Assembly (NCBI RefSeq): GCF_002970935.1
Contig: NZ_CP027194.1
Location: forward strand, 1,426,001 to 1,490,000
Direction of reading: 5' to 3'
Source of the DNA: Lactobacillus sp. CBA3606
GTDB lineage: Bacteria > Bacillota > Bacilli > Lactobacillales > Lactobacillaceae
DNA length: 64,000 nt
The position numbers and the translations under genes are program-made. How positions within the stretch are numbered: position 1 is the first letter of the stretch; the number at the start of each line of letters is the position of its first letter. This document shows, piece by piece, positions 34,388 through 44,456 of this stretch. The notes beneath the pieces were generated by a model. The model searched no databases, was not told the DNA's origin, and saw only the letters and a program-made list of their open reading frames with translations.

Positions 34388-35371
34388 CTATTCTTCAAAA
34401 AATAAGTCAAAAACATGTTGCCGATCTTGGTTCCAAACCTGATTATCGCTCGTCGGATAAACGCGGTTGGTCAAAACGACCAAGCCGAGTTGACGATCCA
34501 AATCAAACGCAATCGCTGGTCCGGTATAACCGGTATGCAGATACTGATGTTTACCTTGGCGTCGCTCCCAACCTAATGTTCGACCTTCAACATCATGCTC
34601 ACCTAACCAATCAAAAACATTTTCATCTAAAACACGCTTACCTTGGTATTCGCCAAAATTCAACATCATTTCAACAAAAACTGTTAAATCCGTTAAAGTT
34701 GAAAACAAGCCGGCATGACCGCTCTCGCCATTAAGCAAGAATGCTTTATAATCATGGACTTGACCTTGGATTTGGCCGCGCCGTGGATCAAATTCCGTTG
34801 GGACAAACCGAATCTTGGGCCGATTCAAGTTATATCCGGTATTCGTCATCGCCAATGGATACAAGATATGATCTTGCACACTGCGCGCTAATGACCCATC
34901 TACCGTCCGAATAATCCAGCCTAAAATAATATAGCCTAAGTCTGAATAAACAACTTTTTCACCGGGAGCTTGTTGCAACTTAGCATCATAAACTGCCGTA
35001 ATCAAGTCTTCTCGATTCATCCCAGATAGATTTTCAATGTCACTTGGCAAGCCACTCGTATGTAACAATAATTGCTTAATCGTTAATTGAGAATGTGCAA
35101 ACCCAGGTAAGAAACGGGCCACTGAGTCATCCAATCGAATCGTATGGTCTGACAATAGTTGGAAAATCCGGGTGGTTGTGCCAACTACTTTCGTCACCGA
35201 TGCCAAATCATATATCATAGAAGCATCTAGTCCGACTGCAAACTCACCATTACCTTGAACACCATGGTAGTACTGGTTAATCCCTTGTGGTGTAATCACA
35301 CTAAACGACGCCCCATAAATATCACCAGCAGCAATACACTTATCAATATATTGTTCTATTTTTTCAATCAC
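34388..35371 (-). CDS. Beta-lactamase-fold serine hydrolase
   Basis: 327 residues. The SxxK nucleophile is in 'DLASVTKVVG' (near residue 58), the Tyr motif is 'VYSDLGYIIL' (YxN-like with Asp-Leu replacing, near 143), and 'LHTGYTGPAIAFD' supplies the third motif region near 273. This is the class C / esterase / D-Ala-D-Ala carboxypeptidase group. No signal peptide is seen, which argues for a cytoplasmic esterase or peptidase over a cell-wall enzyme. Start GTG 35371. Confidence 0.85.
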   Translation of the reverse strand: MIEKIEQYIDKCIAAGDIYGASFSVITPQGINQYYHGVQGNGEFAVGLDASMIYDLASVTKVVGTTTRIFQLLSDHTIRLDDSVARFLPGFAHSQLTIKQLLLHTSGLPSDIENLSGMNREDLITAVYDAKLQQAPGEKVVYSDLGYIILGWIIRTVDGSLARSVQDHILYPLAMTNTGYNLNRPKIRFVPTEFDPRRGQIQGQVHDYKAFLLNGESGHAGLFSTLTDLTVFVEMMLNFGEYQGKRVLDENVFDWLGEHDVEGRTLGWERRQGKHQYLHTGYTGPAIAFDLDRQLGLVVLTNRVYPTSDNQVWNQDRQHVFDLFFEE

Positions 35372-35496
35372 TCGTCACGAGCCTACCTTTCGTCATTGTA
35401 CGCCCTTAGCTTTTAGGCTTCTCATACCCTTTTATCATAACGAAATTCCGAATAAAAGCAACGGCAAACATTTTTTAAAATTTAGAGACATTCCTA

Positions 35497-35525
35497 TTGC
35501 AAACGCTTACTTTATCTGGTAGTAT
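35497..35525 (+). promoter_or_regulatory. Promoter of the long RNA with overlapping cre-like site
   Basis: TTGCAA (35497-35502), 17-base spacer, TAGTAT (35520-35525). TGCAAACGCTTACT at 35498-35511 matches the CcpA cre consensus except at one or two positions and overlaps the -35, suggesting carbon-catabolite repression. Confidence 0.65.
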
Positions 35526-35530
35526 ATTAA

Positions 35531-36068
35531 GTGAGGAAAGGTTATAACCCTCATTAGCAAGCTTCTCAATGAGTTTTGGTTGTCGCCATCACATTAGACA
35601 ACTAGTCTTAACGTTTGGTCGTTACCGAGACCAGTCAGACGTCGTTAAGCGTTATCGGTCCAGTTACTTGCATTGGATGTCTGAACGTTGACCCTTAGAC
35701 AAACGGTAACCGTTATTTGAACCAGCAACAAGTAACATCCGTACGGTTAGTTCCAAATTTCGACTCAGGTTGTAAAAATTTAAGCGGAGGTGCTGTCTGT
35801 CACGAAGACATTACCAAGTTTTAAGCGTAAGTTCGACTTTCGTTAGAATCCGTTTGACGAGTCATGAATCAAGTAAAAATTACTTTTGATCGACTAAAGC
35901 AGATCGCTACAGGAAATACGGGTTAGTCCGTTAGAAGTTGGACACACGTAAAATTGAATAGCATGAAGGTGTAACGTATTAAGAACACAGTACAATTAAT
36001 AATTGCTAATCAGGATTATTCCTCATAAGTAGGACTCAAGTTGAGAAGCCTTGAGCCCTATTTTTTTG
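35531..36068 (+). ncRNA. Long structured noncoding RNA, about 540 nt, unassigned (ROOL/GOLLD-like candidate)
   Basis: The transcript starts about six bases after the -10 box. GTGAGGAA (35531-35538) pairs with TTCCTCAT (36019-36026), and ATTAGCAA (35553-35560) pairs perfectly with TTGCTAAT (36003-36010), so the two ends are closed together. Internal hairpins include GTTGTC/GACAAC (35579-35603), TGGTC/GACCA (35618-35635), AACGG-TAA-CCGTT (35703-35715), GTTACTTG with CAAGTAAC (35664/35729 region), and GTCT../AGAC. It ends in a terminator GGACTCAAG/CTTGAGCCC plus seven T (36032-36067). The size, dense helices and lack of coding are reminiscent of the large 'ornate' RNAs of Lactobacillales (ROOL, GOLLD). 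I cannot confirm the family without a covariance-model search. Confidence 0.7.
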
Positions 36069-36079
36069 TCGTCTGCAAT

Positions 36080-36116
36080 TGAAATCGTTTACACCACTAA
36101 TATGAACTCGTATACT
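36080..36116 (+). promoter_or_regulatory. Aldo/keto reductase promoter with perfect cre site
   Basis: TGAAATCGTTTACA (36080-36093) matches the full CcpA consensus TGWAANCGNTNWCA. It contains the -35 TTTACA (36088-36093), which is 17 bases from TATACT (36111-36116). Repression by CcpA on good sugars is expected. Confidence 0.8.
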
Positions 36117-36140
36117 TGAGTCAAAATAGGAGGTCTTCCT

Positions 36141-37061
36141 TTGAAAAAAATTAATTTAGGTCAAAGTGGCATTCAAGCATCGGCCGTTGCCCTTGGCATT
36201 ATGCGCATGAACGCCCTCGACGTTACCCAAGCAGCCCAAGTTTTAAAATCGGCAGTCGACTTAGGTATCAACTATATTGATGCAGCCGACATTTACGGCG
36301 ACGGTCAGTCATCAACCATTTTTGGTCAAGCCTTAAAGCAGGCTAACATCACCCGTGACCAACTTTACATTCAGACTAAAGGCGGTATTGTTCCCGGTCA
36401 ACGTTATGACTTCTCCAAACAACATCTCATTGATGCTGTTGATGGCGAGCTCAAACGCTTAGGTGTTGATTATTTAGATAGCTTTCTTCTTCATCGACCG
36501 GATCCATTGATGGAACCAGCCGAAGTGGCGGCGGCTTTCAATGACTTACAACGCGATGGTAAAGTACGGCATTTTGGGGTATCTAACTTCAACCCGATGC
36601 AAGTCGAGTTATTACAAGCAGCTCTAAGCCAACGCTTAATGATCAATCAGCTTCAATTTGGTGTCATGCACACTGGTCCAATCGACTTTGGCCTGCACAC
36701 TAATATGCAAGACGACCGTAGTATCAACCACGATGGTGAAATCATTGAGTATTCACGGTTACACAACATGACCATTCAAGCATGGTCACCTTATCAATAT
36801 GGTAATTTTGCTGGAATTTTCTTGGACAATCCTAAATTTCCAAAACTAAATGCGGCAATGCAGACCCTTGCAGATGCTAAGCAAGTTACCAAGAGTGCGA
36901 TTGCAACCGCTTGGATTTTGCGCCACCCAGCACAAATTCAGGTTATCTTAGGGACGATGAATCCAAAACATCTCGCTGAAAATGCCGCTGGAGCAGCAAT
37001 CGAGCTAACCCGCCAAGAATGGTATGATATCTACTTTGCAGCAGGCAATGACTTGCCATAA
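36141..37061 (+). CDS. Aldo/keto reductase
   Basis: 306 residues, NADPH-dependent TIM-barrel oxidoreductase of the YdhF-like group. The catalytic tetrad is visible: Asp and Tyr in 'YIDAADIYGDGQ' (near 48-54), Lys in 'YIQTKGG' and His in 'DSFLLHRPDP'. The C-terminal 'VILGTMNPKHLAENA' cofactor loop is present. Start is TTG 36141 because AGGAGG stands eight bases before it. Substrate unknown. Under a perfect cre site. Confidence 0.9.
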   Translation: MKKINLGQSGIQASAVALGIMRMNALDVTQAAQVLKSAVDLGINYIDAADIYGDGQSSTIFGQALKQANITRDQLYIQTKGGIVPGQRYDFSKQHLIDAVDGELKRLGVDYLDSFLLHRPDPLMEPAEVAAAFNDLQRDGKVRHFGVSNFNPMQVELLQAALSQRLMINQLQFGVMHTGPIDFGLHTNMQDDRSINHDGEIIEYSRLHNMTIQAWSPYQYGNFAGIFLDNPKFPKLNAAMQTLADAKQVTKSAIATAWILRHPAQIQVILGTMNPKHLAENAAGAAIELTRQEWYDIYFAAGNDLP

Positions 37062-37354: not shown

Positions 37355-37774
37355 ATGTCAAAATTCAACATTACACTCATCAACGCGGACCGCGCTAAGG
37401 CAATGCTGACGGAATATAAGGAACAACGCAACCTGTCCATTCCGCGGTTAGCCCATCCGGGTCGTTACATCTTACCAGACTACAAATTAACGCGGCGGCG
37501 GGCGGCTTTCAAAATCGTTAAACACACTTTTTTAACCCCGCATTATAAATCTTACGTTGCAATGGACTCTGATAACGGTCATACGTTATGGTTTCACAAT
37601 TTCGGTTCATTAACTGAAGCCTTGTTTTGGTTAGAAACAGGCCTTAAAACTGGTGATACTGATTCCCACTCTAACTATAAAGAATGGACCGCAAAACACA
37701 CTGACGAAATTGATACTTTCAAGCAAGATTTGCGTCAACATAAAAAGGCCCATCCCAAAAAGAAAAACAAGTAA
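37355..37774 (+). CDS. Unknown basic protein, 139 residues
   Basis: No family recognised. Cytoplasmic, very basic: residues 45-60 hold 'LTRRRAAFKIVKH' and the C-terminus ends in a Lys run. Aromatic residues cluster in 'HTLWFHNFGSLTEALFWLE' (residues 76-94), which looks like a compact alpha/beta domain. AAGGGAG precedes the ATG, codon use matches neighbours and a terminator follows, so the gene is real. The basic tail hints at nucleic-acid binding, but nothing more can be said. Confidence 0.7.
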   Translation: MSKFNITLINADRAKAMLTEYKEQRNLSIPRLAHPGRYILPDYKLTRRRAAFKIVKHTFLTPHYKSYVAMDSDNGHTLWFHNFGSLTEALFWLETGLKTGDTDSHSNYKEWTAKHTDEIDTFKQDLRQHKKAHPKKKNK

Positions 37775-44164: not shown

Positions 44165-44290
44165 TTGGAGAAAGCAAACGGGTCACCACGGCAAAAAGAG
44201 CTGTGATGACCCATCGACTCAATTCGCTTATAGTCCAGCATTTACGGTGCTGGGTAGAAACTCGCCATCCTTATCATGGCATTATATAGG
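44165..44290 (-). ncRNA. Purine riboswitch (guanine-type) upstream of adenine deaminase
   Basis: The minus strand carries the aptamer core TATAAT..GTTTCTACC..GCACCGTAAATGC..GACTAT at 44225-44290. The specificity base in 'GACTAT' is C, as in guanine/hypoxanthine aptamers; adenine aptamers have T there. The expression platform is GGGTCATCAC/GTGGTGACCC at 44180-44213, followed by a modest T-rich stretch. So high guanine or hypoxanthine should shut off the gene, an end-product logic. Confidence 0.88.
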
Positions 44291-44456
44291 CAATTCGTTT
44301 ATTTTATAAATTTGTTTGTCAGTAACCTTAGCAGACTTCGATTTCAAATGCAACCGCCGTGAGTCTGACTAAGCATTGCTTTACTAACTGGAAGCGTTTA
44401 TGCTATTAGCAACAAGCCAACTTGGCTCACTCAAACAATGTAAGGAGTTCCCTGTC

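Follow-up and report, generated by a model that had tools for sequence, protein, structure and literature searches.

A candidate gene for a large structured RNA in Lactobacillaceae, with paired ends and a cre-like box over its own promoter

Results

Within the window, by which we mean the whole 64-kb stretch of DNA that was analysed, a structured RNA gene candidate occupies positions 35531-36067 of the plus strand, where it combines its own promoter, a 537-nt body with paired ends, and a terminator. By appearance this is a free-standing RNA gene. Upstream, on the minus strand, lies a serine hydrolase gene (34388-35371); downstream, on the plus strand, lies an aldo/keto reductase gene (36141-37061). 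Both names come from the original prediction, which assigned them by reading the sequence alone. The rRNA operon nearby looks incidental. The features discussed below are as follows.

35497..35511, plus strand: putative cre-like CcpA box TTGCAAACGCTTACT, which includes the -35 hexamer (35497-35502); TTGYANNCGNTNNC is carried by 60 of 62 loci
35517..35525, plus strand: extended -10 element TGG TAGTAT (hexamer 35520-35525); identical geometry in 58 of 62 loci
35531..36067, plus strand: structured RNA of 537 nt, its presumed start placed by the promoter and its presumed end by the terminator
35531..35538, plus strand: P1 5' strand GTGAGGAA, pairing with 36019-36026; invariant in 20 of 20 Lactiplantibacillus sequences
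35553..35560, plus strand: P2 5' strand ATTAGCAA, pairing with 36003-36010; in 8 of 8 groups the mean binding of own arms exceeds that of foreign arms
35561..35569, plus strand: GCTTCTCAA, proposed to form a pseudoknot with the terminator loop, to which it is complementary; core in 50 of 51 members tabulated
35571..35730, plus strand: arm module, present once here and four times in the relative L018
35578..35603, plus strand: hairpin GGTTGTC/GACAACT of the variable arm module; covariation
35786..35792, plus strand: GGAGGTG element before a hairpin (Shine-Dalgarno-like); exact form in 34 of 61 members, while 60 of 61 contain GGAGG at some point
35926..35943, plus strand: hairpin GTCC-GTTAGAAGTT-GGAC; four stem pairs invariant in 20 of 20 Lactiplantibacillus sequences
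35964..35972, plus strand: TGAAGGTGT; AGGTG unchanged across all aligned 3' modules (24 of 24)
36003..36010, plus strand: P2 3' strand TTGCTAAT; same basis as the P2 5' strand
36019..36026, plus strand: P1 3' strand TTCCTCAT; same basis as the P1 5' strand
36030..36067, plus strand: intrinsic terminator TAGGACTCAAG / CTTGAGCCCTA, then T7; helix 20 of the consensus structure, 97.7% of cells paired
36041..36049, plus strand: terminator loop TTGAGAAGC, proposed pseudoknot partner; same basis as GCTTCTCAA

The original prediction had described a self-closed transcript of some 540 bases, free of reading frames, that begins at a good sigma-A promoter and ends in a terminator. Both helices that were said to join its ends are present at the locus, as is the terminator, whose stem (36030-36040/36050-36060) encloses a loop of 9 nt and is followed by T7; our own scan made no call here because the loops it allows end at 8 nt. 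The promoter (-35 TTGCAA at 35497-35502, a 17-nt spacer, and a TG-extended -10 TAGTAT at 35520-35525) stands out by its conservation, although it is a poor fit to the consensus, and with 8 of 12 consensus bases it was missing from a scan list with a threshold of 9. The claim about reading frames needs amendment in that a single open reading frame of at least 40 aa does lie inside the RNA body (35569-35691, 40 aa). However, its start codon is present in only 10 of the 20 aligned relatives, among which the frame runs from 8 to 45 codons, and so we do not regard it as conserved. Three features of the locus went unremarked in that prediction: the cre-like box over the -35 element, the complementarity between GCTTCTCAA and TTGAGAAGC, and the spread of the RNA over nine genera.

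The plus-strand fold has a minimum free energy of -140.5 (z -2.57) and beats 100 of 100 dinucleotide shuffles. Because the minus-strand fold likewise beats its shuffles (z -3.58), folding energy alone is little proof, and it is comparison that carries the case.

By blastn, the RNA is present once in its own genome and in 21 of 21 genomes of the same genus among 100 relatives. An exact pattern for the 3' end, run over named genomes, retrieved 23 stretches, 21 of them in Lactiplantibacillus/uncultured Lactobacillus, Pediococcus, Secundilactobacillus and Paucilactobacillus, and two of them chance matches. Seven of the eight pattern matches outside the first genus have an evident 5' end, and the eighth (L032) is linked to the others via L118. 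Of 397 Lactobacillaceae genomes, 50 gave a match to a model of the 3' module (R1), and three of these we judged false; with a wider model (R2), 82 of the 397 had a match at E 0.01. We counted the 56 genomes with E <=6e-5, for whose 62 loci the upstream parts were read. These genomes represent 9 of 40 genera, six of the 56 have two copies, and RNA length ranges from 451 to 1105 nt among the 60 uncut loci that were measured. The other 26 of the 82 genomes matched by R2 (E 9.5e-5 to 0.01) are uncounted, their upstream parts being unread, and the figure of 56 may therefore be too low.

Two further searches delimit the family. A pattern for the promoter and 5' end occurs in 37 of 397 genomes, one of which (G131) is a non-member, and a reversed control found none. 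Model R1 applied to 295 genomes from the whole order gave 8 matches, all in Lactobacillaceae and three judged false. Several candidates were set aside: three g38 genomes (L106, L108 and L109), which have neither the cre-like box nor CUUCUC in the 1.1 kb upstream; Fontibacillus L047 and Candidatus Culexmicrobium L054, both dropped before counting; and two viral contigs whose pattern matches scored only 16.9 bits with model R1. The single non-member noted above, locus L194 of genus g3, is likewise uncounted. There, at about 1660-2010 on the minus strand, a unit of about 300 nt has the same cre-like promoter, an GTGAGGAAGG start and its own terminator but lacks the family core, and it is perhaps a divergent relative of the RNA family.

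Covariation was assessed on 20 full-length Lactiplantibacillus sequences; the 21st, L018, was left out because of its repeats. The consensus structure of 132 pairs consists of the RNAalifold consensus (131 pairs) minus the 7 pairs of one competing helix plus 8 pseudoknot pairs. Of 2626 cells, 98.1% are standard pairs, compared with 37-44% for slid-partner controls. When the Lactiplantibacillus sequences were aligned as the original prediction had proposed, 17 of the 132 pairs changed on both sides (68 cells), and 0 of 500 shuffles reached either the paired share or the change counts. Further pair types are not in excess over shuffles in these 20 sequences (342 of 500 reach the observed value). 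One pair of the GGTTGTC/GACAACT hairpin is illustrative, being CG in 7 sequences, UA in 7, AU in 4, UG in 1 and unpaired in 1 (n=20). One pair of P2 changes from AU to GC in 5 of the 18 sequences that have letters there, and P2 in extended form is the single inverted repeat found by a repeat search. Variation within the genus is too slight to support or refute P1, several 3' helices or the core of the pseudoknot.

Comparison between genera bears on these invariant parts. P1 is found in 49 of 51 members, as placed by script, with one position that is AU, UA (g34) or CG (g22) and one type of UU mismatch in g22. When the 5' and 3' arms of P1 and P2 from 50 of the 51 members (L110 was left out) are exchanged between genera, the own partner has the stronger mean binding in all eight groups, the values ranging from -26.7 vs -12.2 kcal/mol for the first Pediococcus copy to -17.7 vs -15.0 for Secundilactobacillus. 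The best single foreign pairing nevertheless beats the own mean in 5 of 8 groups (-32.9 vs an own mean of -20.7 in Lactiplantibacillus). Overall, a long self-closed structured RNA in chromosomal DNA, as originally predicted, is supported both by covariation and by relatives in nine genera.

Varying Watson-Crick pairs include 78 G-U cells, 14 A-C cells and 29 other mismatches. The excess of G-U over A-C favors an RNA read from the plus strand, with the proviso that the structure was predicted for the plus strand and is biased that way. The same counts bear on whether the element could instead act as DNA, as a cruciform repeat like the multi-copy supermotifs (LPSM) of L. plantarum. According to a passage of PMC5643018, these supermotifs are large, intergenic, transcribed and structured elements of the same genus, present in many copies of 800-1000 nt and not found in other Lactobacillus species. 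We find this explanation barely credible for an element that has one copy in its genome, relatives in nine genera, a promoter and a terminator, and G-U rather than A-C at its varying pairs. It is by their description only that we set the RNA apart from LPSM.

A second proposed contact joins GCTTCTCAA, just inside P2, to the terminator loop. Its 6-nt core reads CUUCUC/GAGAAG or CUCCUC/GAGGAG in 50 of 51 members, as found with a pattern that admitted only CUUCUC or CUCCUC with GAGRRG. At one position of the core U-A becomes C-G in four g34 members, the pairing appears by eye to be extended with other bases in g11, and one pair that flanks the core varies among genera, with mismatches in several. 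The motif pair was not found in six g26 loci nor in L192. RNAalifold had proposed that GCTTCTCAA pairs with TTGAATAGC; within the genus both alternatives are nearly invariant, and we replaced this helix with the terminator-loop pairing because of the other genera. Exchange of loops between genera speaks against the pseudoknot in part: foreign terminator loops pair equally well or better in 4 of 8 groups. A further loop test is weak for it: the own and foreign helix lengths are 6.2 and 5.8 in Lactiplantibacillus, 5.9 and 5.9, and 5.6 and 6.2, in two Pediococcus copies, 7.0 and 5.9 in g25, 7.0 and 5.8 in g11, and 6.0 and 4.2 in g34, and only in g34 is the separation clear.

The same motif could serve a different purpose. 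If CUUCUC pairs with the Shine-Dalgarno regions of mRNAs, then the RNA would be a base-pairing regulator, and the GAGAAG loop would be an internal lock that holds until a target competes. Its presence as CUUCUC or CUCCUC in the 50 members tabulated, these being the only forms that the pattern admitted, speaks for such a role, but the g26 loci lack the motif pair, and the RNA is larger than regulators of this type. A precedent is RsaI, which in the section of PMC9266662 that treats it is CcpA-repressed and pairs with the Shine-Dalgarno sequences of its targets. We consider antisense action through CUUCUC to be the main rival to the explanation given below, although an unlikely one.

Two other conserved elements resemble Shine-Dalgarno sequences themselves: the GGAGG element, and AGGTG, which occurs in the last 150 nt of 61 of 61 members. 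One reading is that the RNA is a message for a small peptide that starts three bases past GGAGG, either alone or in addition to another function (a dual-function RNA). Most aligned Lactiplantibacillus sequences have ATG or GTG at that point and a frame of 17 codons, and among the 22 of 61 members listed, three from g26 have an 18-codon frame in the same place with residues that look similar by eye, three from g34 have frames of 28-40 codons, and frames also begin at the same place in g25 and g11 members. However, the start codon is absent in the window species and its sister, where a GTG within the Shine-Dalgarno-like element keeps the frame, and no frame starts there in the listed Pediococcus (L085, L087, L089, L113) or in Paucilactobacillus L117. 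The g34 and g26 frames are mutually unlike, and the bases of the start region also form a hairpin stem. The codon changes in Lactiplantibacillus (6 synonymous vs 14 replacing) do not look selected, the other two frames being alike in this respect (2/14 and 4/12). We judge a peptide product unlikely and give this reading little weight.

Ribosomes might also bind the GGAGG and AGGUGU elements without any translation. The invariance of AGGUG in the aligned 3' modules fits this idea, and CGGAGGTGC contains a 7-nt exact complement to the 16S rRNA end. Shuffled motifs reach this length in 44% of cases, however, TGAAGGTGT falls below its own shuffles, and the exact GGAGGTG is confined to a little over half of the members (34 of 61). 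Complementarity to rRNA, being no better than that of shuffled motifs, was thus rejected as a basis, and ribosome binding seems to us highly improbable.

Comparison of the relatives shows, at the level of sequence, conserved paired ends, a conserved 3' half, and a variable 5' half whose arms differ between genera, in a gene with its own promoter and terminator. Of 51 members compared with themselves, 8 carry tandem arm repeats: L018 has four of about 165 nt, L107 four of about 65 nt, L087 two to three of about 120 nt, L094 three of about 120 nt, and L100, L111, L113 and L114 two each. The four copies in L018 (712-1816) have a 10-N assembly gap inside them, and so the true copy number there may differ. 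In ten g34 arm copies, chosen by a fixed motif, two pairs of the stem change on both sides in 3 of 10 copies; none of 500 shuffles has as many such cells, but 228 of 500 reach the count of pairs changed on both sides. Another pair of the stem fails to form in 7 of 10 copies, and a slid control (-3) gave a covariation score of 0.222 vs 0.233 with fewer pairs formed. Arms that vary in this way from genus to genus do not point to a single shared ligand.

The original prediction also suggested kinship with ROOL and GOLLD, which the searches do not bear out. Six Rfam matches up to E 10 fall at the locus (35371-36140), with a best E of 0.34, and none is to ROOL, GOLLD, OLE or raiA, the models that had been named for this check. 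The set searched comprises 4227 families, presumably with the GOLLD, OLE and raiA models among them, and on nine relatives up to E 0.1 it gave one chance miRNA match only. A genome-wide search for ROOL (RF03087) also gave no match, but its controls were silent too, so that this search does not demonstrate absence. Collections of phage (50,697 records) and plasmid sequences (72,556 records) contain no match to the RNA, and no tRNA was found in the 64-kb window.

Two known RNAs were considered for the locus and dropped. The single match of the genome to 6S RNA (RF00013) lies elsewhere, at G000:C1:871014-871202, with 38.2 bits under a cut-off of 46.4, and the 6S RNA of this genome may be divergent. 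The RNase P gene (RF00011) is also elsewhere, at C1:407235-407613 (335.3 bits). The window contains one ordinary known element, a purine riboswitch at 44211-44309 on the minus strand (73.1 bits). Among the titles listed from the open-licence literature we found no description of the RNA; older work on L. plantarum RNAs is outside that scope, and prior mention is possible.

A looser likeness to the ornate RNAs persists. ROOL and GOLLD also have several hundred nucleotides and dense helices, and in the sections of PMC12286853 that concern them GOLLD has a conserved 3' and a variable 5' half, both RNAs are placed in phages and prophages, often near tRNA islands, and OLE is a large structured bacterial RNA. 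An RNA-only assembly (a dimer or cage) of independent origin, comparable to OLE, ROOL or GOLLD, would accord with the size, helix density and layout seen here. Unlike ROOL and GOLLD, however, this RNA is without phage or plasmid match and without tRNA in the window, no model of the three RNAs matches it (it resembles OLE only in being large and structured), and sequence analysis gives no sign of contacts between molecules. We rate such an assembly as improbable, though deserving mention.

The promoter region bears on regulation. The box was assigned with the cre consensus as generally known. In 60 of 62 loci the 3' module is preceded, at a distance of <=1.1 kb, by the sequence TTGYANNCGNTNNC, and in 58 this sequence has the exact spacing to the TG-extended -10; the loci were found mostly by the 3' module (the 21 genus members were found by blastn including the promoter, and a few loci also by the promoter pattern). 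The exceptions are L097 and L186. Downstream control stretches of similar length gave 4 matches to the box pattern and 0 to the pattern with the -10. On the upstream antisense strand the shorter pattern matches 12 times, possibly as an effect of the near-palindrome. A -35 element needs none of the bases CG-T--C that follow it, and the cre-like box therefore seems to be under selection of its own. Because the box covers the -35 element, it is strongly suggested that CcpA blocks the promoter during supply of the preferred sugar and that the RNA is made once that sugar is gone; binding of CcpA to the box is our inference. PMC8414754 describes cre sites, and in its pertinent section those over promoters act repressively in B. 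subtilis.

Similar arrangements occur elsewhere. A second cre-like box, TGAAATCGTTTACA (36080-36093, within window 36080-36116), overlaps the -35 of the promoter that precedes the aldo/keto reductase gene (TTTACA, 17 nt, TATACT), and so that gene may answer to CcpA too. Another family of the order has, at L023:1501-1806, about 250 nt that end in a terminator and are headed by a cre-like promoter with the geometry seen here. This unit shares the promoter alone with the family and was rejected as a member; it is possibly another CcpA-controlled small RNA.

Gene neighborhoods bear on whether the RNA is a leader. Within the stretch examined, the aldo/keto reductase gene lies downstream in 19 of 21 genus members and not in other genera, and the serine hydrolase gene lies upstream in 8 of 21. 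Other genera have different direct neighbors with two exceptions, a 139-aa protein and a membrane protein that is common to two Lactiplantibacillus and three g34 loci. The RNA is therefore not the leader of one gene, and its position is partly inherited. The 139-aa protein, encoded at window 37355-37774 and shared by Lactiplantibacillus and Pediococcus, has no Pfam match at E 0.1. All 14 genomes of these two genera that were tested have its gene 0.5-2.5 kb away from the RNA, in varied arrangements. In Secundilactobacillus (2 of 2) the gene sits on a different contig. Of 38 genomes that have the RNA, 22 lack the gene, and of 22 genomes in which no RNA was detected, 4 have it. We take the proximity to reflect shared ancestral order and do not regard the protein as a required partner.

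Discussion

These observations lead us to propose that the locus represents a new family of large chromosomal RNAs that is probably repressed by CcpA and that would act as a multi-arm binding platform when the preferred sugar runs out, a proposal to which we give slightly better than an even chance. When preferred sugar is present, CcpA would sit on the cre-like box over the -35 element and block the promoter; upon exhaustion of that sugar, the RNA would be made. The paired ends, joined in most genera by pairing of the terminator loop to the 5' part, could make the RNA long-lived. Its arms, copied in tandem in some lineages, may be binding sites for a protein or for another RNA, in which case the RNA would act in trans, as a multi-site platform or sponge, and would alter gene expression under sugar limitation. 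A multi-site platform is our first choice because of the size of the RNA, its closed ends and its copied arms.

Other bacterial RNAs offer points of comparison. CsrB and RsmZ are sponges, and CsrB uses repeated hairpin arms to bind many copies of one partner; SR1 is a catabolite-controlled, dual-function RNA with a peptide. We know of no motif that any of these shares with the RNA described here. RosA and RsaI are small regulators, unlike this large RNA, and to our knowledge they lack arm modules like those seen here. In function RsaI and RosA come closest all the same, as stand-alone, trans-acting RNAs under CcpA repression, and the mark of such RNAs, a cre box at their own promoter, has a counterpart in the cre-like box found, from sequence, at nearly all of the loci (60 of 62). 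In the parts of the sources that deal with them, RosA of B. subtilis is a CcpA-repressed sponge RNA (PMC8216469), and RsaI of S. aureus is a CcpA-repressed RNA that represses targets in trans by pairing with Shine-Dalgarno or 3' regions (PMC9266662). Similarly, the account of 6S RNA in PMC8414754 includes a cre site at the 6S gene in about a third of lactic acid bacteria and describes 6S RNA of Lactococcus lactis as a CcpA-repressed trans-acting RNA. The likeness to 6S RNA lies in the cre site at the gene; the difference lies in size, the 6S model having 187 positions.

In its broadest form, our proposal would be that these RNAs constitute a new class of large RNA machine that is switched on at exhaustion of the preferred sugar, with a closed-end conserved core and lineage-specific, tandem-copied arms, and that works as a scaffold, a sponge or an RNA-only assembly. 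We offer this only tentatively, as something that may well prove wrong. Large structured bacterial RNAs are few, and several are without known function, according to the portion of PMC12286853 that surveys them. If the broader proposal is true, then an RNA machine ties carbon catabolite control to a post-transcriptional programme. The RNA is single in its genome and belongs to a group that includes much-used food bacteria (Lactiplantibacillus, Pediococcus). Its deletion should be easy. Sugar provides a testable trigger for the RNA, and the repeated arms provide a natural series for tests of arm binding.
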